Source: a virus
Strand: one strand, 5' to 3'
DNA: 52,939 nt
IMG/VR virus record: IMGVR_UViG_3300028361_000037
Location: 1-52,939 of that record
The position numbers and the translations under genes are program-made. The notes under the pieces are model-generated. The model had not been told where the DNA came from, searched no databases, and saw nothing but the letters and a program-made list of their open reading frames with translations. Position 1 is the stretch's first letter, and every line of letters begins with the position of its first letter. Of this stretch, positions 26,494-35,806 are shown in pieces.

Positions 26494-26501
26494 TACATTT
26501 G
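26494..26501 (+). promoter_or_regulatory. Bacteroidota -7 box (TACATTTG) for the homing endonuclease gene
   Basis: TACATTTG followed by C fits TAnnTTTG. It lies 27 nt upstream of the ATG at 26529. No -33 TTG at the usual spacing was seen. It argues for the ATG at 26529 rather than the upstream TTG at 26499, which overlaps the box. Confidence 0.45.
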
Positions 26502-26528
26502 CGTAGTTATAATAAAGAAACAATAAGT

Positions 26529-28211
26529 ATGAAAAAAAAGACAATAGAAGATTTTATTTTAGAATCAAATAAAATACATAACAGTAAATATGATTATACT
26601 AATTCAGTTTATATAGATAATAACACTAAACTTAAGATAATATGTAGTGAGCATGGTGAATTTGAACAGAAACCTAATAAACACATTTGTAATAAACAAG
26701 GTTGTCCAAAATGTGGTTCAAGTAAAACTAGTGATAAACAGAAGAACACAATCGAATTCTTTATTCAAAAGGCTAATGAGGTACATAGTGATAAATATGA
26801 TTACTCAAAGGTTATATATAAGAACACTAAAACTAAGGTTATAATAATTTGTCCTATCCATGGTGAATTCGAACAAACGCCAGATAATCATTTATCTGGT
26901 AGAGGATGTATGTACTGTGGTGGTACAATTAAAATGGATGGAAAGTTATTTATATCTAAAGCTCAAAAAATACATAACAATAAATACGATTATTCAAAAG
27001 TTGTTTATACTAATTCTAGAACTAAAGTCACTATAATTTGTGCTATTCATGGTGAATTCGAACAAACACCAAATAACCATCTATCCAAAGAGCAAGGTTG
27101 TTTTGAATGTTTAGGTAAAATATACAATACCGACACTTTTAAAACTATATGTAGTATAGTTCATAATAATAAATATGATTACTCAAAAGTAATCTACAAT
27201 AACTCTCAGGGTGAAGTCGAAATAATTTGTCCTATTCATGGTGAATTTAATCAAAGGGTTGATTCACATAGACAAGGAAATGGTTGTATTAAATGTTCAA
27301 ATAATGGTACATCGTCTCATGAAATTGAAATAAAGACTTTTATAAAATCACTTGACGTTAAAATTATAGAGAATACTAGAAAAATAATAAAATCATTTGA
27401 ATTAGATATTTATTTACCAGACCATAAAATAGCTATTGAATATAATGGGTTATATTGGCATTCCGAAATATATAAAGATAAAAATTACCACCTCAATAAA
27501 ACACAATTATGTTCAGAACAAGATATTCAATTAATACACATATTTGAGGATGAATGGTTAAATAAACAAGATATTGTTAAATCTAGACTTAAAAATATTC
27601 TTGGTTTAACACAAAAAAGAGTTTATGGTAGAAAATGTGAAATAAAAGAGGTATCAACAAAACAAGTCAGAGAATTTTTAATTAATAATCATTTACAAGG
27701 ATATAGTAATTCAAGTATTAGGTTAGGGTTATATTATGAAAACAAGTTAGTTTCTTTAATGACTTTTGGTAATTTAAGAAAGATTTTAGGTCAAAATAAA
27801 AAAGAAAACTCATATGAATTACTTAGATTTGTCAATGAGTTAGATACGAGTGTAATTGGTGGGGCCGATAAATTATTTAAATATTTTATAAAAAATTATA
27901 ACCCAAAAGAAGTTATTAGTTATGCCGATAAACGATGGAGTGTTGGTAATTTATATGAAAAATTAGGTTTTGAATTTATTCATGACTCGAAACCTAGCTA
28001 TTTTTATATTATAAATAAAGAAAGGAAATATAGGTTTAATTACCGAAAAGATTTGTTAGTTAAAGATGGTTATGATAAAACCAAGTCAGAACATGACATA
28101 ATGTTAGAAAGAGGTATTTATCGAATTTATGACTCTGGTAATAAAAAATATATTTTAAAATTTTTTACTATTTTGTTTATATGTTTACAACAATCATATC
28201 TGATGTTGTAA
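26529..28211 (+). CDS. Free-standing Vsr-type homing endonuclease with four zinc-finger-like repeats
   Basis: This rightward 560-residue protein opens with four ~60-residue repeats of the pattern IHNNKYDYSKVxYxN, then IICPIHGEFEQ and GCxxC, probably zinc-binding DNA-recognition units. A Vsr-like nuclease core follows (FELDIYLPDHKIAIEYNGLY, with WHSE and IHIFEDEW), related to PD-(D/E)XK and very-short-patch-repair enzymes. A C-terminal domain (RFVNELDTSVIGGADKLF; YADKRWSVGNLYEKLGFEF) is common to phage enzymes of this type. It interrupts the gp25-gp6 pair on the opposite strand, a typical homing insertion. Its last ~12 residues run antisense into gene 25. The start at ATG 26529 fits the promoter box. 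Confidence 0.85.
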   Translation: MKKKTIEDFILESNKIHNSKYDYTNSVYIDNNTKLKIICSEHGEFEQKPNKHICNKQGCPKCGSSKTSDKQKNTIEFFIQKANEVHSDKYDYSKVIYKNTKTKVIIICPIHGEFEQTPDNHLSGRGCMYCGGTIKMDGKLFISKAQKIHNNKYDYSKVVYTNSRTKVTIICAIHGEFEQTPNNHLSKEQGCFECLGKIYNTDTFKTICSIVHNNKYDYSKVIYNNSQGEVEIICPIHGEFNQRVDSHRQGNGCIKCSNNGTSSHEIEIKTFIKSLDVKIIENTRKIIKSFELDIYLPDHKIAIEYNGLYWHSEIYKDKNYHLNKTQLCSEQDIQLIHIFEDEWLNKQDIVKSRLKNILGLTQKRVYGRKCEIKEVSTKQVREFLINNHLQGYSNSSIRLGLYYENKLVSLMTFGNLRKILGQNKKENSYELLRFVNELDTSVIGGADKLFKYFIKNYNPKEVISYADKRWSVGNLYEKLGFEFIHDSKPSYFYIINKERKYRFNYRKDLLVKDGYDKTKSEHDIMLERGIYRIYDSGNKKYILKFFTILFICLQQSYLML

Positions 28212-28659: not shown

Positions 28660-29277
28660 TTACGTAGAACAACCTTCACACTCAAATTGACTTTCTGTCG
28701 GTTTTTCTGGTTGTTTTACTTTACTCATGTCAATAGCTAAGTGTTTAGCTTTCATTTCAACTGGTTGACTTCTTAAATAGTATTGTCCAGTTTTTAACCC
28801 TAATCTCCAAGCTAGAAAATGTGCTGTTGTTAATTTACCTACCGTTGGAGTAGCGAAGAATAAATTTAAACTCTGTGATTGGTCAATAAATGGACCTCTT
28901 TCAGCTGACATTTCTATTAAAGATTTTTGTGACAACTCCCAAACTGTTTTGTAAATGTCTTTTAAATCTTGACTAATTGCTGAAATATTTTGAACACTTC
29001 CTTCACTTTTAATTAATTCTTGTAAAATATCTCTATTCCATAATCCTTCAGCTTCTAAGTCCCTTACTAGATGTTTATTTACCATCGCAAATTCACCACC
29101 AGTTACTTTTCTAACATAAAGATTTGACGTAAATGGTTCAAATGCTTCGTTTGCCCCAATTACTCTAGCTGAGTTATGACTAACACAACCGTTTTCCATT
29201 ATATAATGATTTACATTAGGTACTTCAATATCCCATGTTGGTTTTACTTCTCCTTTAGATATTTTTTTTATTTTCAT
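28660..29277 (-). CDS. nrdA: NrdA piece 3: C-intein plus C-terminal part of ribonucleotide reductase large subunit
   Basis: Residues 1-35 are a split C-intein ending ENGCVSHN; Ser36 is the +1 splice nucleophile. Residues 36-205 are the NrdA C-terminus, eukaryote-like class Ia: ARVIGANEAFEPFTSNLYVR, MSAERGPFIDQSQSLN and LKTGQYYLRSQPVE. It ends with a CEGC redox pair (CxxC) that would be reduced by thioredoxin or glutaredoxin. It must be trans-spliced to piece 2 (29331-30314) to give an active enzyme. There is a 53-nt gap from piece 2, with no endonuclease gene in it. The ORF starts with its own ATG and is not a pseudogene. Confidence 0.93.
   Translation of the reverse strand: MKIKKISKGEVKPTWDIEVPNVNHYIMENGCVSHNSARVIGANEAFEPFTSNLYVRKVTGGEFAMVNKHLVRDLEAEGLWNRDILQELIKSEGSVQNISAISQDLKDIYKTVWELSQKSLIEMSAERGPFIDQSQSLNLFFATPTVGKLTTAHFLAWRLGLKTGQYYLRSQPVEMKAKHLAIDMSKVKQPEKPTESQFECEGCST
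29173..29277 (-). other. Split C-intein 'NrdA-b' (35 residues)
   Basis: This short C-terminal half contains the block-F-like TWDIEVPNVNHYIMEN and the block G ending CVSHN, with penultimate His and terminal Asn before Ser+1. Its partner N-half is at 29334-29672. Confidence 0.9.
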
Positions 29278-29330
29278 TTTTTTTTTCTTAATTTATTAAT
29301 ATTTTTTATTTGATAACAAAACATCGAGGG

Positions 29331-30314
29331 TTATTCGAAAATATTTAAAATATCGTCATCTAATAAGAGGTCTTTAACTTCAACCCAAGTTTCTTGACCA
29401 TCTCTATTTACCTTAAACTTATGGTTTGGTGTTGCCTCAAAAATAGAACCATCTTCCATTTCTATTTTGTACACTTCTGAATACGCATTGTATTTAATTT
29501 TATCAACTTCTTCGTAACCATTAGTGGTTTTTACATTAAAAGGTTTTAATGGTAACCATTGTTGTAAATTGTTGTCCTCTAAAGCTGACCAATCGATATT
29601 ATTTTCTTCCAATATATCTTTAAAGGATTTAACACCGTTTTCGGTTTGTATTCTAGTTCCAATAACTTGACAACTAGCAGTTGGTGGTGCTGTTGTTACT
29701 AAAGAATTTCTAACACCATATTTAATTATGTCTTCTCTTAATTGTTTCCAATCATGAAGACCAGATAAATCTTCTTCATTTATTCCCCACATTTCCCATT
29801 GGAAAACACCCTCAGAAATAGGTGAACCTTCATACCCATGATATTTTAAACCACTTGATTTAGCTAAATTACAAGATTCCTTAAGTGCATTATAATAAAT
29901 GGTTTCAAAAATGTTTTTATTTAATTTCCTTGCACTTTCTGAAGTAAAAGGAAGTTTTAATATCGCATATGTGTCGGCTAATCCTTGAATACCAATTCCT
30001 AATGCTCTTTGCTCTAAACCACCTTTTCTACCTTCTTTTGTAGAATATTCATTGACCTCAATTGCGATATTAAGTGATTTAGTTATTGAACGAGCAACCC
30101 TTCCTAACTCAATAAAGTCATATTTACCATCTTTAATAAATTTATGTACTGGGATACTTGTAAGCGTACAAATCGCAGTTGTCTGATAATCAGTCGATTC
30201 CATAATTTCTGCACAATTATGTACTAAGATACCGTTCCCAAAGAAATTACTATTACCTTCAACTGTAATGTCATACACCTTTTTATTTTCTTTTAATTTT
30301 TCTATTTTTATCAT
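29331..30314 (-). CDS. nrdA: NrdA piece 2: C-intein, middle of ribonucleotide reductase large subunit, N-intein
   Basis: The 327-residue protein has three parts. Residues 1-33 are a C-intein ending GNGILVHN. Residues 34-214 are NrdA middle sequence starting at the thiyl-radical cysteine (CAEIMESTDY) and including GLEQRALGIGIQGLADTYAI and ending TTAPPTAS. Residues 215-327 are a second, different N-intein starting CQVIGTRIQT. The piece therefore needs two trans-splicing reactions, one at each end. It starts 1 nt after the stop of piece 1 (TAA-A-ATG), which favours coupled synthesis. NrdA reduces ribonucleoside diphosphates for phage DNA synthesis. Confidence 0.93.
   Translation of the reverse strand: MIKIEKLKENKKVYDITVEGNSNFFGNGILVHNCAEIMESTDYQTTAICTLTSIPVHKFIKDGKYDFIELGRVARSITKSLNIAIEVNEYSTKEGRKGGLEQRALGIGIQGLADTYAILKLPFTSESARKLNKNIFETIYYNALKESCNLAKSSGLKYHGYEGSPISEGVFQWEMWGINEEDLSGLHDWKQLREDIIKYGVRNSLVTTAPPTASCQVIGTRIQTENGVKSFKDILEENNIDWSALEDNNLQQWLPLKPFNVKTTNGYEEVDKIKYNAYSEVYKIEMEDGSIFEATPNHKFKVNRDGQETWVEVKDLLLDDDILNIFE
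29334..29672 (-). other. Split N-intein 'NrdA-b' (113 residues)
   Basis: It begins with Cys1 (CQVIGTRIQT) and carries block B as TPNH within SIFEATPNHKF. There is no endonuclease domain. It is inserted after the conserved PTAS of NrdA. Confidence 0.9.
30216..30314 (-). other. Split C-intein 'NrdA-a' (33 residues)
   Basis: The half-intein spans KKVYDITVEGNSNFFGNGIL and ends VHN, with Cys+1. That Cys+1 is also the catalytic cysteine of NrdA. Its partner is at 30319-30645. Confidence 0.9.
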
Positions 30315-30315
30315 T

Positions 30316-31902
30316 TTACGTTTTTGTATTTAATATTTCTAATACATCAGTCTCAACTAAATCTTTAGCTAACACATATCCTCTATTTTTTGTGAATATT
30401 TGGTGTTCTGGTGTGCAAATAATATGTTTACCAGTTTCCTCATCAGTTATCTTTAAAACATCAGCTGACTCATTCATTAAGGCAGCATTTGTTATCTTTT
30501 TATATTCTGGTTTATTTGTTTCAATATTATAACTTAATACTTCTATACCGTGTTCTACATTAAAATCGTTAACAACATCGGAAATATTAAAATCAACTTC
30601 CTTACCATGATATTTTGTTTTAATAATTGTTTCACCATCAACACACAAATTACTTGAATGAATCATACCAACGTTTTTTTGGTTCGATTTTTTATTAGCA
30701 TGGTCTTTGTGACACATGTAAGGCATACCAGTCTCAATTTGGGCTTCTAATATTTTTAACCATAAATCATAAGCTTTTATCTTGGTTCCAATACCTAAAG
30801 CCACAGCTTTGTCGTATTCTTCTTCAAATTCAACACCATATATTTCATAAAATGGTTTTAGACCAGCTTCTTTTATGTCATCTGGGCAAAATAGATACCA
30901 ATCTCCTCCAGATTCAACTGCTCTCATGAAATTATCTGTATTCCATAAGGCCGAAAATAAATCTCTGGCCCTCATTGTTTCATCACCTGTTTTTTTTCTA
31001 ATATCTAAAACATCAAATACATCTTTATGCCATGGTTCGATGTAGATTGCACAGGAACCTGGTCGTTTACCACGTTGATTCCAAAACCTAAGTGTTTCAT
31101 TAACAATTTTTAAATATTTCAAAATACCACCAGCTTTTCCGTTAGATTTACCAACGTTACTTTCTTTAGAACGCATGTTAGAAACAGCTAATCCGATACC
31201 CTCTGCCTTTGACGATGAAATTGCAATTCTAGATAAAATATTTAATAAACCATCAGTTGAATCCTCTGGAATTATTGATAAGTTACATGATGCAATTTGT
31301 CCAATTGTGGTACCAATGTTAATTTTTAAAGGTGTTGCTGGACTTTCTTTTTGAAAGCTTAAATCATCATACTTCTCTAAAAAGTCTTCTGGTGTTCCCG
31401 TTATCATTAAAGCAACCCTAACATATAAGTGTTGTGGTCGTTCAACGATTGAACCGTTTTTCAATTTTAGAAGATAAATATCTTTTAAAGAACACCACCC
31501 AAAATAATCAAAATGAAAATCTCTTTTATAATCAATTGCTGACTCAATTAATTCGATATTATCTTTTACTTTATTGAAGTAAACCTCACTTAATAGACCA
31601 GCGTTATACATCTTTTTAGTCGCTTTCATAAACGATTCCTCAGTTTCCTTATGAAGTTTAGTTATTGAAATATTAGCGGCTAATATTGAGTAATCTGGAT
31701 GATTCATTGCTAAAGATTCGGCCACAACAGAAATTAAGTCATCTAATTGATTAGTTGTCATTAAATCCGCAATACCTTGTGTTACTTTAATAAATACATC
31801 ATCCGCATTTACTTTTAATCCTTCTGATTGTTTTTTAATTCTTGTTAGAATTTTATTCGGGTTAAAATCAATCTTATTCCCGTTTCTTTTAATTACTTGC
31901 AT
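30316..31902 (-). CDS. nrdA: NrdA piece 1: ATP cone and N-terminal catalytic region plus N-intein
   Basis: The 528-residue protein starts with an ATP-cone regulatory domain (MQVIKRNGNKIDFNPNKILT) of class Ia reductases. The catalytic barrel follows, with IGQIASCNLS (redox cysteine), GRGKRPGS-like RGKRPGSCAIYIEPWH and MPYMCHKDHANKKS, ending at residue 419 in MIHSSNL. From Cys420 it is a 109-residue split N-intein (CVDGETIIKT; block B CTPEH). After trans-splicing with pieces 2 and 3 the mature NrdA would be 419 + 181 + 170 = 770 residues, a normal length. It lies 11 nt downstream of nrdB in one operon. Confidence 0.93.
   Translation of the reverse strand: MQVIKRNGNKIDFNPNKILTRIKKQSEGLKVNADDVFIKVTQGIADLMTTNQLDDLISVVAESLAMNHPDYSILAANISITKLHKETEESFMKATKKMYNAGLLSEVYFNKVKDNIELIESAIDYKRDFHFDYFGWCSLKDIYLLKLKNGSIVERPQHLYVRVALMITGTPEDFLEKYDDLSFQKESPATPLKINIGTTIGQIASCNLSIIPEDSTDGLLNILSRIAISSSKAEGIGLAVSNMRSKESNVGKSNGKAGGILKYLKIVNETLRFWNQRGKRPGSCAIYIEPWHKDVFDVLDIRKKTGDETMRARDLFSALWNTDNFMRAVESGGDWYLFCPDDIKEAGLKPFYEIYGVEFEEEYDKAVALGIGTKIKAYDLWLKILEAQIETGMPYMCHKDHANKKSNQKNVGMIHSSNLCVDGETIIKTKYHGKEVDFNISDVVNDFNVEHGIEVLSYNIETNKPEYKKITNAALMNESADVLKITDEETGKHIICTPEHQIFTKNRGYVLAKDLVETDVLEILNTKT
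30319..30645 (-). other. Split N-intein 'NrdA-a' (109 residues)
   Basis: It starts at Cys420 of piece 1 (CVDGETIIKT), with GIEVLSYNIETNKPEY and block B HIICTPEHQIF, and stops without an endonuclease domain. It is inserted between Leu and the radical Cys of the SSNLC motif. Confidence 0.9.
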
Positions 31903-31913
31903 ATTTTTTTTTA

Positions 31914-32891
31914 TTAAATTTCTTCATCAAATGAAATAGGTCCACTTAAATCAGCTGATTTGTACTCTGTTGAACGACCTTCAAAAAAGTTTTGTTTTGT
32001 TTTTAAAGCAATTTGGTTCATAAATTCAAATGGGTTTTTAGTGTTAAAAACTTTGTCGCATTCAAGTTGAACCAATAAACCATCAACAACAAATTCTAAA
32101 TATCTTTTCATTAATTCAGAATTCATACCAATAAGAGAAACTGGTAAAGATTCGGTAATAAACTCTTTTTCAATTTCTAATGCTGACAAGAAAATTTCTT
32201 TAATTCTTTCGTTAGATGGTTTGTTTACGATGTGATTATTCAATAAGTGAATAGCAAAATCACAATGTAGTGCTTCATCTCTTGAAATGAATGCGTTGCT
32301 ATCACATAATCCAGGCATCAAACCTCTTGATTTCAAATAAAATATACTACAAAAAGAACCACTGAAAAATATTCCTTCAACAGCAGCAAAAGCCACCAAT
32401 CTTTCAGCAAATGATTCGGATTCAATCCATTTTAAAGCCCAATCAGCCTTCTTCTTGACTGGTTCCATATATTCTATCGCCTTAAAGCATTCATTTCGCT
32501 CTTTGGTGTCTTTGATGTACGTATCAATCAATAGTGAATACATATTACTGTGTATATTTTCCATCATAATTTGAAAACCATAAAAGAATGATGCTTCAGT
32601 ATACTGAACTTCTTTTAAAAAATTTTCTGCCAAGTTTTCATTTACGATACCATCTGAGGCAGCAAAAAAAGCTAATACGTTTTTAATGAAAAACCTTTCA
32701 TTTTCAGTTAATTTATTATTCCAATCGTCAATATCTTTAGATAAATCAACTTCTTTTACCGTCCACATTGATTCTAAAGATATTTCATAATATTTCCAAA
32801 TATCTTCATGTTCAATTGGGAAAATAACAAAACGGTCCGAATTTTTAACTAAGATTGGTTCTATTTCTTCTACTCCACTAATATTACTCAT
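31914..32891 (-). CDS. nrdB: Ribonucleotide reductase small subunit NrdB (class Ia)
   Basis: The 325-residue ferritin-like protein supplies the tyrosyl radical to NrdA. It shows the di-metal ligands in order: Asp in [13 protein letters not shown], Glu and His in [11 protein letters not shown], Glu in AVEGIFFSG, and Glu/His in DEALHCDF. The Tyr four residues after the His of ENIH fits the radical tyrosine (Tyr122 in E. coli). It is eukaryote-like, matching NrdA. The C-terminal tail ([10 protein letters not shown]) would dock on NrdA. No intein interrupts it, unlike NrdA. The leader holds GTTT/TTTA repeats. Confidence 0.95.
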
Positions 32892-32920: not shown

Positions 32921-33421
32921 TTATACTGGGACTATTAACCCCTCCATTACTTCGGTCTTTGTTTTTTGTGCCTTAGCCGCTGCAAATAATGTATTAACTC
33001 TTAATTGCTGTTTTACACTTTTATCTTCAGTATGCTCTTTTTTTGTCCTAGCACCTTTACTTTCACCCATATCGATTTGAATCCTTGAATTATCAAATTT
33101 AATATCCTGAAATATAACACCATCTTTACCAAAACGAGATTTAAGTATTGCCATAGTTGCTGTACCATCATCTTTTTGGTCTAAAGTTTTAGCGATTGAC
33201 ACGATAAAGTGACCAATCTGACCTTTTTTAATAGAACCACCCATTTGGTTTGCTTCCACCACTTCTGCTGAAAGAGAACTATTGTGTGTATAGATATCAT
33301 TAGCGTAAAACATATGTGTTTCCTCTACTGTTATATCAATGGTGTCCTCTTCTCCGATTAATTCTATTGATTCAATTTCATCTAACTCAAAATCGTCTAA
33401 GTTTAAATTGTGTTCTATCAT
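32921..33421 (-). CDS. 41: Replicative helicase piece 2: C-intein plus C-terminal part of DnaB/gp41-type helicase
   Basis: Residues 1-47 are a split C-intein ending HMFYANDIYTHN, which from memory resembles the gp41-1 C-intein (ending LFYANDILTHN). Ser48 is the +1 residue. Residues 48-166 are the DnaB C-terminal end with the H4-type motif (SSLSAEVVEANQMGGSIKKG, then QIGHFIVSIAKT) and a late RFGKDGVIFQDIKFD strand. It must be joined to piece 1 (33485-35806). The gap between the pieces is 63 nt and holds no gene. The start at 33421 follows an A-rich leader. Confidence 0.92.
   Translation of the reverse strand: MIEHNLNLDDFELDEIESIELIGEEDTIDITVEETHMFYANDIYTHNSSLSAEVVEANQMGGSIKKGQIGHFIVSIAKTLDQKDDGTATMAILKSRFGKDGVIFQDIKFDNSRIQIDMGESKGARTKKEHTEDKSVKQQLRVNTLFAAAKAQKTKTEVMEGLIVPV
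33281..33421 (-). other. Split C-intein of the helicase (47 residues)
   Basis: It has an extra acidic N-terminal extension (EHNLNLDDFELDEIESIE) before the canonical DTIDITVEETHMFYAND and THN ending. The charged extension may help the halves associate with the basic N-half. Confidence 0.88.
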
Positions 33422-33484
33422 TTATTTTTTTTTAACTCCATAATCCTTACTAATTAAATAGTAACAGAAATAGAAATATTTACA

Positions 33485-35806
33485 CTATTTTTTAGTTAAT
33501 AATTTATCACCAACACTTAACCCAGTAGATATTGACCTTAATTTACCACATTTAACTGGGAATTCATGTTTACTAGAAACAAATATTTCCTTACCAGACT
33601 TTAATTTAATTTTATAAACTGGTTGTTTTTCTATTGGAAAAACAGTAGTAATTTTTTTATACCCATCATTTGTTAATATTTCATCACCCTCAATAACATT
33701 CTTTATTTCTGTTTTACCCAACCTAATTATTTGAACCTCAGTATCTATTCGCACGCAACGATTTCCTTGAACCGCTGTCCAACCAGCCATATCTAGTTCA
33801 GATAACAACGTCTCAAATTGTCTCATTACACTTCCTTCACCAGCGTTTATATCATCAAATTTTCTTGATGGTTCAACGCAATCTATGTAGTCTAATAAGA
33901 TTAAGTCTGGTCTAAACCCTTGTGCGATTAATTTTCGGATATATTGTCTAATCATAGGTATTGTTGTCCCATCGCTTGAAAATTTTACTAATCTTAAATC
34001 ACCTAGCTTTTGTTTTTCAGCGACAATCGTCATAACTTCATCATGATGTGACGACAAATCATTTAGAGGGATGCCTGTCCAACAAGATAAGTGTTTTCTT
34101 TGAATAACTTTTGGGTTATCTTCGAAAAATATTTGTAAAACATTATAACCATCATTAGCTCCAGTATTCGCTATTTTTGTCATCATTGTTGTATTATGTG
34201 TGACGATAAAATCGTCTGTAACATATAAATGCTCTGGGTCATCAACCATAATACATTTAGCTTCTTCATCATGTGAATATTCAATACTTTCTATGAACTT
34301 ATTGTCAGAGTGGTTATCGTTATTAACCACTCTGACTAACTTACTGTTTAATTTAAATGGAACTACACCATTTTCTTTAGGAAATGAAATAACTAATCTA
34401 TAAGTTAATTCCCCTACTTTATTAGAAACTAAACAAGAACCACCCAAAGATAGAACTAATTCTTTAACGTCATCACATAGCTGTTTAGAAACGGTATTAT
34501 ATCCAACACTACCATCTTTTCCAACACTACCATCGTTATCTAATAACCCTTGTAGAATCTCTTGTCTATTGTTAATTGAGTTATATAGATATTCTTTAGG
34601 TATAAATTTATTATTAGATGACGAATCAAATAACCCAAGTTTTTTTATTACATCGGTGATTTGATTTATGGTTACGATAACATCATCTTTATACATTTCA
34701 ACACCGTATGTTGAATCACCACTCATACTTTGTTTAATGTATTCTATCAGTTCAAAATCTTTAGTTACTATTATAGAAGACTTGAAGTATTCATCACCTA
34801 TTAATAACCCCAAAAGGTATGGGTTTAACGGTAATTCTTTTTCGTCAAAAATAACTGGTTTAACTGTTGGAATCTTATAGTTAAACTCACCTTTAGGGTC
34901 AGAATTTAACTTTTCAATAATATCACTGGTTTTCATAACAGTAAAATCATCGTTTGGGTCCAATTTAGTTTGTTGATTAACTGACCATAAGTGTTCTTTA
35001 TCACACATTGTTGATGTTCCATCATTAAACTTTACTTGGTAAATTGGTCTGATACCTTGTGGGTAAACCCCAGTAACATTTGTTTGTCTACCTAACCTAT
35101 TAATTACCCTATCACCAACTTTAATATCACCCATTAAACAATAACCACTTGGAGTATAAATTTTACTCGAAACACCTTGTGCTTTACCAACACCAAATGG
35201 TGCTAATATAACACCTAATTCACCTTTGGATAGACCACCATCCATTATTTCGTCTAACCCAGAAATACCAGTTGGTATTGGTTTCCTAAAATCAACATCT
35301 AAAACACTACTTATGTTGTCATAGACACTCATTCCTTGGTCTTTGTTATCACCAACTTCGAGTGATTTTCTTAACATAGCTTCGATTTGGTCGAAATTAT
35401 CCAATCCACCACTTTTATTTAGTTTTTCAACATTCACTAAAGTCTTCAACATGTCTTGCTGTTTACAAAACCTCATAGCCATGTCTTGGACTTTTAATGT
35501 ATCATTTAAATCGGCTTCTTGTATTTTTCTAAGTTGTGCAATGACGTATTTTTGTTGTATATCGTCTTTAACTTCTTCTAATAATCTAAATTGTAGACTA
35601 CCAATATCTGGTACTATGTTATCAATTCTATGTGCATCTTTAATTGTAGCAACAATTATTTTCAAATACGAGTCAGCAAAATAATTTGGGTCAACGATAT
35701 CTAAAATAGATTCACTAAATTTTCTATCCGTTATAAATTGTGCAATTAGTCTAATTTGATAATCGTAACCTAAATAACCAAAACTATCTCTATCTAACAC
35801 CGCCAT
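33485..35806 (-). CDS. 41: Replicative helicase piece 1: DnaB/gp41-type helicase with P-loop intein and split N-intein
   Basis: Residues 1-208 are the helicase N-domain and linker up to the Walker A lysine (LAPFGVGK). Residues 209-538 are a contiguous intein. Residues 539-683 resume with TTMMTKIANTGANDG, Walker B-like PDLILLDYIDCVEPS and end AVQGNR. Residues 684-773 are a split N-intein (CVRIDTEVQI) similar to gp41-1. After one cis and one trans splice with piece 2 the mature helicase would be 208 + 145 + 119 = 472 residues, about the length of T4 gp41 (475). It unwinds DNA ahead of the fork and should pair with the primase at 2182-3135. Confidence 0.93.
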   Translation of the reverse strand: MAVLDRDSFGYLGYDYQIRLIAQFITDRKFSESILDIVDPNYFADSYLKIIVATIKDAHRIDNIVPDIGSLQFRLLEEVKDDIQQKYVIAQLRKIQEADLNDTLKVQDMAMRFCKQQDMLKTLVNVEKLNKSGGLDNFDQIEAMLRKSLEVGDNKDQGMSVYDNISSVLDVDFRKPIPTGISGLDEIMDGGLSKGELGVILAPFGVGKAQGVSSKIYTPSGYCLMGDIKVGDRVINRLGRQTNVTGVYPQGIRPIYQVKFNDGTSTMCDKEHLWSVNQQTKLDPNDDFTVMKTSDIIEKLNSDPKGEFNYKIPTVKPVIFDEKELPLNPYLLGLLIGDEYFKSSIIVTKDFELIEYIKQSMSGDSTYGVEMYKDDVIVTINQITDVIKKLGLFDSSSNNKFIPKEYLYNSINNRQEILQGLLDNDGSVGKDGSVGYNTVSKQLCDDVKELVLSLGGSCLVSNKVGELTYRLVISFPKENGVVPFKLNSKLVRVVNNDNHSDNKFIESIEYSHDEEAKCIMVDDPEHLYVTDDFIVTHNTTMMTKIANTGANDGYNVLQIFFEDNPKVIQRKHLSCWTGIPLNDLSSHHDEVMTIVAEKQKLGDLRLVKFSSDGTTIPMIRQYIRKLIAQGFRPDLILLDYIDCVEPSRKFDDINAGEGSVMRQFETLLSELDMAGWTAVQGNRCVRIDTEVQIIRLGKTEIKNVIEGDEILTNDGYKKITTVFPIEKQPVYKIKLKSGKEIFVSSKHEFPVKCGKLRSISTGLSVGDKLLTKK
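33488..33757 (-). other. Split N-intein of the helicase (90 residues)
   Basis: It starts at Cys684. The stretch YKIKLKSGKEIFVSSKHEFP parallels the gp41-1 N-intein as I remember it. It is inserted after the QGNR of the conserved DnaB Q-x-N-R motif. No endonuclease domain. Confidence 0.9.
34193..35182 (-). mobile_element. Contiguous LAGLIDADG intein in the helicase Walker A motif (330 residues)
   Basis: It begins at Ala209 (AQGVSSKIYTPSGYCLMGDI), an Ala1-type intein, and ends YVTDDFIVTHN before Thr539. The endonuclease core has both LAGLIDADG motifs with their catalytic acidic residues: YLLGLLIGDEYF and ILQGLLDNDGSV. It splits GVGK from TT, so unspliced protein cannot bind ATP properly. Both Asp being present suggests active homing. 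Confidence 0.9.
34304..34336. repeat. 13-bp perfect hairpin inside the intein coding sequence
   Basis: GTCAGAGTGGTTA (34304-34316) and its exact reverse complement (34324-34336) flank a 7-nt loop. It codes within VRVVNNDNHSDNK. Confidence 0.85.

Follow-up and report, generated by a model that had tools for sequence, protein, structure and literature searches.

How can a virus make a working ribonucleotide reductase (RNR) when nrdA, the gene for its large subunit, is broken into three open reading frames (ORFs)? The question is raised by a virus fragment of 52,939 bp with T4-like replication genes (IMG/VR record IMGVR_UViG_3300028361_000037), the whole of which is called the window here. On its minus strand, from 31902 to 28660, NrdA is spread over three consecutive ORFs whose exteins measure 419, 181 and 170 residues, 770 in all, and the breaks carry the halves of two split inteins. 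Judged from the sequence, it is very probable that the three NrdA precursors undergo two class 1 trans-splicing reactions and yield one class I RNR large subunit of 770 residues.

Three ORFs and two split inteins

All features of nrdA lie on the minus strand. ORF1 (31902-30316, 528 residues) holds the ATP cone, the all-alpha domain and the start of the barrel, followed by a 109-residue N-half. ORF2 (30314-29331, 327 residues) consists of a 33-residue C-half, 181 residues of barrel and a 113-residue N-half, and ORF3 (29277-28660, 205 residues) has a 35-residue C-half and the 170 residues that complete the barrel and include the C-terminal cysteines. By Pfam and PHROG matches, the three ORFs contain consecutive parts of NrdA together with Hint halves.

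The N-half of split intein 1 (N1, 30319-30645) starts with Cys1, has CTPEH as block B, ends in ..EILNTKT and is inserted at SNL/C, the slash marking the break, just before the radical cysteine; its C-half (C1, 30216-30314) reads MIKIEKL..GILVHN. The N-half of split intein 2 (N2, 29334-29672; CQVIGTR..LNIFE) has ATPNH as block B and is inserted at PTAS/S, and its C-half (C2, 29173-29277) reads MKIKKI..GCVSHN. Both inteins have the residues of a class 1 split intein: Cys at N-half position 1 (CVDGET and CQVIGT), a TxxH block B (TPEH and TPNH), and a penultimate His, terminal Asn and +1 Cys or Ser (VHN/C and SHN/S). The Hint profile PF14890 matches above its cut-off at 30216-30443, and below it at 30289-30594 and 29241-29627 (E 2.6e-10 and 8e-9). 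N1, at the end of ORF1, would pair with C1, at the start of ORF2, and N2, at the end of ORF2, with C2, at the start of ORF3. Splicing would then join SSNL/CAEI and PTAS/SARV, and the spliced NrdA would be expected to contain the junction peptides NVGMIHSSNLCAEIMESTDYQTTAICTLTSIPVHK and NSLVTTAPPTASSAR.

A preliminary description of the locus had proposed three proteins and two split inteins, with halves of 109+33 and 113+35 residues and a middle protein bearing a half at each end. Its lengths, those of the exteins included, agree exactly with the ORF coordinates and domain matches, and the proposal is borne out by intact splice residues, by a low ratio of nonsynonymous to synonymous substitution rates (dN/dS) in the exteins, C1, N2 and C2, and by recurrence of the layout.

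An assembly error was considered as the cause of the three-piece gene and ruled out, because two further contigs (L006 and L007; L-numbers are the labels of the compared contigs and records) are 99.99% identical to the window across 16,981 bp, and because L005 (92-98% identical) and L008-L010/L016 share the three-ORF layout.

The joined exteins form a complete NrdA

Six syntenic contigs, L017-L022, carry an NrdA that is 79-84% identical to the joined exteins and has both sites empty; five of them span NrdA essentially whole, and L021 ends at the contig edge. Because NrdA is uninterrupted there, the exteins form a continuous NrdA and the junctions are fixed, which was the alignment check proposed in the preliminary description. 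The sequence across the empty site 1 of L011 and L015 is SSNLCAEI or SSNLCSEI, and that across the empty site 2 of L188 is PTASSARV.

The domains of a class I NrdA (ATP cone, all-alpha domain and barrel) are all present, and alignments to solved RNRs find C206, C420, C435, Y731-732 and C765/C768 in the joined extein. We assign their roles after E. coli and yeast RNR. Extein 1 (30646-31902, 419 residues) holds one redox cysteine at mature position 206 and extein 2 (29673-30215, 181 residues) its partner, C435, so the redox pair is divided between ORF1 and ORF2; extein 3 (28663-29172, 170 residues), in ORF3, holds the YY radical-transfer pair 731-732 and the C-terminal CEGC. Since the catalytic residues are spread over all three ORFs, no single piece could be the enzyme. 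In the alignment to yeast RNR1, SSNLC places C420 of the window opposite the cysteine numbered 428, which we take to be the radical cysteine. Because C420 also directly follows C1, the first residue of extein 2 would have two roles, as radical cysteine in catalysis and as +1 nucleophile in splicing.

The dN/dS of the exteins is 0.05-0.14 between the window and L189 and 0.06-0.11 between the window and L010. In comparisons with L189 or L010, the values are 0.08-0.26 for C1, 0.09-0.25 for N2 and 0.05-0.24 for C2. Exteins, C1, N2 and C2 are thus all under purifying selection.

The NrdJ-1 split intein (PDB 8UBS), which likewise sits at the RNR radical-cysteine site, is a homologue of N1 (E=1.4e-11). 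Among the best 80 N1 relatives in viral contigs, all those whose aligned N-terminus reveals the insertion context are at SNL/C, and 71 of the 80 have a reading frame that stops no more than 25 residues past the N-half, so the family is mostly split. The site-1 inteins of L010 and KP13-7 are 37-40% identical to N1 of the window and are inserted one codon later (SNLC/S or SNLC/C). A mosaic origin of the L010 intein, considered because the identity of its N-half is low and that of its C-half higher, was dropped because C-halves are in general better conserved; KP13-7 has the same ratio. The N2 family is rarer, with 26 loci, some of them in genes other than nrdA. Short N2-like N-half matches also occur in topoisomerase-like ORFs of L284-L289, tentatively with the site context YHHG. 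Six weak matches were found in a bacterial genome collection, none of which was taken for a gene split in this way: five cover just part of C1, and the sixth (L296), 38% identical over query residues 1-51, covers C1 and continues 18 residues into the extein.

Gaps between the halves and the endonuclease genes of relatives

Fractured genes, reportedly described by Dassa et al. in 2009, are said to be split inteins with an endonuclease gene between the halves. In the window no such gene lies in either gap. Gap 1 (30315-30337) is the ORF1 stop, 1 nt and the ORF2 start (TAAAATG) and overlaps a 22-nt scar; gap 2 (29278-29330) is 53 nt long and has no ORF. Endonuclease-type gap ORFs are present in L005, L188, L011, L015 and gap 1 of KP13-7, which makes the window a derivative that lacks the endonuclease. 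The scar in gap 1, ATTAAATACAAAAACGTAAAAT, matches the 3' end of the GIY-YIG ORF of L005 at 20 of 22 nt (0 of 2000 shuffles), and it also codes for the last residues of N1 and its new stop. By this match, the window has lost a GIY-YIG endonuclease gene from gap 1. An endonuclease gene was probably lost from gap 2 as well.

At site 2, the gap of relatives contains a Vsr-like endonuclease candidate (L011 and L015) or its remnant (L189). For the ORF of L011 the predicted fold has low confidence, and the PDB structures closest to it are Vsr and the homing endonuclease I-Bth0305I; the fractured-gene paper of Dassa et al. reportedly included a Vsr-like endonuclease family. In the intact gap ORFs examined, the start sits inside a strong hairpin of -16 to -28 kcal/mol. 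Start hairpins lie at L005:6799-6870, L188:6313-6384, L189:6313-6384, L011:8901-8985 and L015:8881-8970; those of L011, L014 and L015 are similar in layout, and the stem sequence of L011 is unlike that of L014 and L015. They resemble the start-codon hairpins of T4 homing endonuclease genes. The gap ORFs are candidate active homing endonucleases.

The likely history is that each split intein inserted itself into a conserved codon of the nrdA active site, in an invasion presumably driven by an endonuclease gene inside the break (N-half, endonuclease, C-half). The endonuclease would later have been deleted from gap 1, and probably from gap 2, while the split inteins stayed. The halves would have been retained because rejoining the exteins into NrdA needs splicing and not the endonuclease.

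Gain, loss and exchange among relatives

All four combinations of empty and split sites occur among the relatives. Both are empty in L017-L022. Site 1 is split with a 261-residue GIY-YIG ORF and site 2 empty in L188, and site 1 is empty and site 2 split with a 353-359-residue endonuclease candidate in L011-L013 and L015. Both sites are split in L189, with a 261-residue GIY-YIG ORF at site 1 and a 90-residue, internally deleted remnant of the candidate at site 2; in L005, with a 395-residue GIY-YIG ORF at site 1 and no endonuclease ORF at site 2; and in L010 and the window, where neither gap has an endonuclease ORF.

L188 and L189 are 94-98% identical over aligned blocks. They are separated at site 2 by an exact 818-nt insertion in L189 (N2, remnant and C2). 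In the gp41 helicase gene both intein sites are empty in L188, and the split site of L189 is filled by an insertion of ~1600 nt, made up of an N-half, a 373-residue endonuclease-type ORF and a C-half. Because the two records differ by exact cassettes, a split intein and its endonuclease gene are gained or lost as one unit.

The N-half of site 1 has also moved by itself. The window and L005 share N1 with L189, with zero synonymous differences in 105 codons. A block of ~390 nt (L189:6006-6390 and L005:6492-6890) that is 97-100% identical runs from the junction of extein 1 and N1 to ~30 nt inside the endonuclease ORF, thus covering the N-half and the endonuclease start hairpin, whereas the flanking extein 1, endonuclease, C1 and extein 2 are ~80% identical with dS around 1-2. 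Because this near-identical block stands in an ~80% background, N1 has been exchanged between phages without its C-half, and the C1s found beside the shared N1 are unlike one another at 7 of 33 positions.

Recurrence in other phages

Middle proteins with a half at each end are also found in viral contig L280 and in the Klebsiella jumbo phage KP13-7 (OP617745, our L085), where the NrdA pieces are annotated as hypothetical proteins. The Klebsiella phages form a series: both sites are empty in RaK2, site 2 alone is split in phiKp_21, and both are split in KP13-7. The RaK2 match had seemed to extend into C1, and its translation has both sites empty. The +1 residue is Cys in KP13-7 and Gln in RaK2 and phiKp_21. 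Both gaps of KP13-7 are occupied, gap 1 by a GIY-YIG ORF and gap 2 by an ORF that weakly matches an endonuclease. Exon 1 of its nrdA (L085:2977-5263) is further broken after ..KSCSQG by a 128-residue HNH ORF, which is probably intron-borne, with no Rfam match in L085. No match to known RNAs, group I introns included, was found at the nrdA breaks of the window, L085, L005, L189 and L011 at the Rfam gathering threshold.

In the Campylobacter phage CP20 (our L086), nrdA (L086:3415-7482) has a split intein at site 1 and a contiguous, homologous in-frame intein at site 2, which represents the site-2 element in unsplit form. CP20 belongs to the same species as CPt10 (Firehammervirus CPt10), whose nrdA was published as a disrupted, degenerating remnant (PMC3653736). 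Because its species-mate has, besides an in-frame intein, a clean pair of N- and C-halves, the CPt10 gene seems better read as a split-intein gene than as a pseudogene. Phage nrdA genes that have been called pseudogene or hypothetical, as in CPt10 and KP13-7, are probably functional split genes. A further NrdA, at L211:3769-6318, has an extra large in-frame intein in exon 1 and a split site 1 with a 181-residue gap ORF.

Pairing fidelity

Mispairing of N1 with C2 would fuse ORF1 to ORF3 and lose the middle piece, and mispairing of N2 with C1, both of which lie on ORF2, could cyclise the middle protein. The preliminary description had foreseen the first of these as a deletion of the middle with the radical cysteine; the deletion stands, but the cysteine is the +1 splice residue and not simply inside the middle. 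It did not include the cyclisation, the endonuclease-type gap ORFs of relatives or a third split intein, in gp41. That the halves are clearly different, as it had said, is what the window gives: N1 and N2 are 27% identical (z 4.7), and C1 and C2 39% (z 6.1).

Within their site family, C1s are 61-79% and C2s 66-94% identical even when phages as remote as the Klebsiella jumbo phages are included, and the family signatures are distinct in several phages (C1 VYDITV..NFFAN.ILVHN; C2 TWDIEVP..YI..NG.VSHN). Because the halves differ between families yet resemble each other within one, the orthogonality of the two NrdA pairs is supported, short of proof, and that it evolved is plausible. Pairing inside a site family looks tolerant, since the same N1 occurs with differing C1s, and the barrier that counts would lie between families. 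The net charges are -8 and -11 for the NrdA N-halves and +1 for both C-halves; the gp41 intein, with +7 on its N-half and -15 on its C-half, has the reversed layout, a difference that may prevent it from pairing with the NrdA halves.

Alternative explanations

The pieces might assemble into a working NrdA without splicing. This has a precedent in the Aeromonas phage Aeh1, whose two-piece NrdA, split by a free-standing endonuclease, is functional without a self-splicing intron according to the passage of PMC3653736 that cites Friedrich 2007. It is very unlikely in the window, where both breaks hold complete halves with intact splice residues, C1, N2 and C2 are under purifying selection, and break 1 lies at the radical cysteine, so that ~140 extra residues would fill the active-site loop. 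Hardly credible at all is a pseudogene decaying under mobile elements, the conclusion drawn for CPt10 (PMC3653736). The many breaks would fit it, but the exteins have low dN/dS, all catalytic residues are kept, an intact NrdB adjoins, the layout is repeated in diverged phages, and CP20 has its clean pair and in-frame intein. The preliminary description's view that the gene is functional rather than decayed therefore seems sound. A more serious rival, still improbable, is that the pairs are not truly orthogonal, so that some ORF1-ORF3 deletion product and cyclised middle would form and the correct product would arise mainly through local co-translational pairing. Homology between N1 and N2 and between C1 and C2, their shared net-charge pattern (-8/+1 and -11/+1) and the tolerance within a family speak for it; the distinctness of the two site families in several phages speaks against it, as does a screen that yielded 15 split inteins orthogonal to one another (PMC7090010).

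Some observations qualify the case for trans-splicing of three precursors into one subunit. In an AlphaFold model of the middle protein, the C1 end is poorly placed, with pLDDT <50 at residues 19-38, and the model speaks neither for nor against docking of C1 on N2. The dN/dS of N1 between the window and L010 is 0.68 at 38% identity, a value that says little because the two carry different inteins at adjacent phases, one codon apart. The window is a fragment, and judged from it alone a second NrdA elsewhere in the phage is possible; 8 related contigs have one NrdA per record. In gap 2, the best matches to an endonuclease remnant were equalled in 2-36% of shuffles, and no scar is claimed there. 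Trans-splicing of the three precursors nevertheless remains the preferred explanation, and we infer splicing, pairing fidelity and assembly into a working enzyme from these comparisons. Beyond it, we lean towards a broader picture in which tandem trans-splicing occurs in nature: an essential enzyme, found repeatedly in three pieces, depends on two independently mobile, mutually orthogonal split inteins, and N1 alone, with the start hairpin of the endonuclease, passes from phage to phage and pairs with the diverged C-halves already resident there.

Relation to known systems

The nrdA of the window belongs with the split-intein fractured genes, as a three-piece, endonuclease-free variant. As in those genes, a phage replication or RNR gene is broken by a split intein at a usual endonuclease insertion point, and near relatives have a GIY-YIG or Vsr-like candidate between the halves. 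Unlike them, the window has two split inteins, three precursors, a middle one with a half at each end, and no gap endonuclease. NrdHF from Ace Lake is an example of a fractured gene (PMC7891396), and the NrdA-2 split intein came from metagenomics, according to a work cited in PMC7090010. KP13-7 is alike in that homologous inteins split both of its sites and its middle protein bears two halves, and unlike in retaining gap ORFs, in the HNH break of exon 1 and in having site 1 one codon later. CP20 shares the split site 1 and a homologous intein at site 2, but there the intein is a contiguous (cis) one and NrdA comes as two proteins. The breaks of the Aeh1 gene-in-pieces have no intein halves, whereas those of the window have complete ones.

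Engineered tandem trans-splicing uses three segments and two orthogonal split inteins, the middle segment being C-half, extein and N-half (PMC12707363). The arrangement in the window is natural and would be the counterpart of such man-made assembly, and a source of split-intein pairs co-selected in nature. Among the entries listed by literature searches that touched on split inteins in phage or natural genes, no natural three-piece case appeared, a result that does not extend to the genes of Dassa et al. 2009. The relatives form an almost complete series, with sites empty, split with an endonuclease, with the endonuclease replaced, decayed or deleted, and with one or both sites occupied; the long-standing question of the origin and persistence of split inteins therefore becomes directly testable. 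The series shows how a gene can come apart yet stay functional.

Neighbouring features

NrdB, the small subunit (31914-32891, minus strand; PF00268, 1e-104), lies in the same operon, 5' of ORF1. The DNA closest to the window's nrdAB is that of Tenacibaculum and Cellulophaga phages, so a Bacteroidota host seems likely.

The N-part of a gp41-type helicase (33485-35806, minus strand) has an in-frame LAGLIDADG-like intein and a terminal 90-residue N-half, that of the third split intein, which is inserted at GNR/SSLS. The 47-residue C-half and the C-terminal gp41 extein (SSLSAEVV..) follow at 32921-33421, minus strand. The gap between them, 33422-33484, contains a mini-ORF, AAGGATT-ATG-GAG-TTA-AAA-AAA-AAA-TAA, which overlaps the ATG of the C-piece and is a possible endonuclease remnant. 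On the opposite (plus) strand, at 26499-28211, a free-standing phrog_559-type endonuclease ORF with zinc-finger repeats lies between baseplate genes, and its residues 381-513 give a sub-threshold match to the Mom family.

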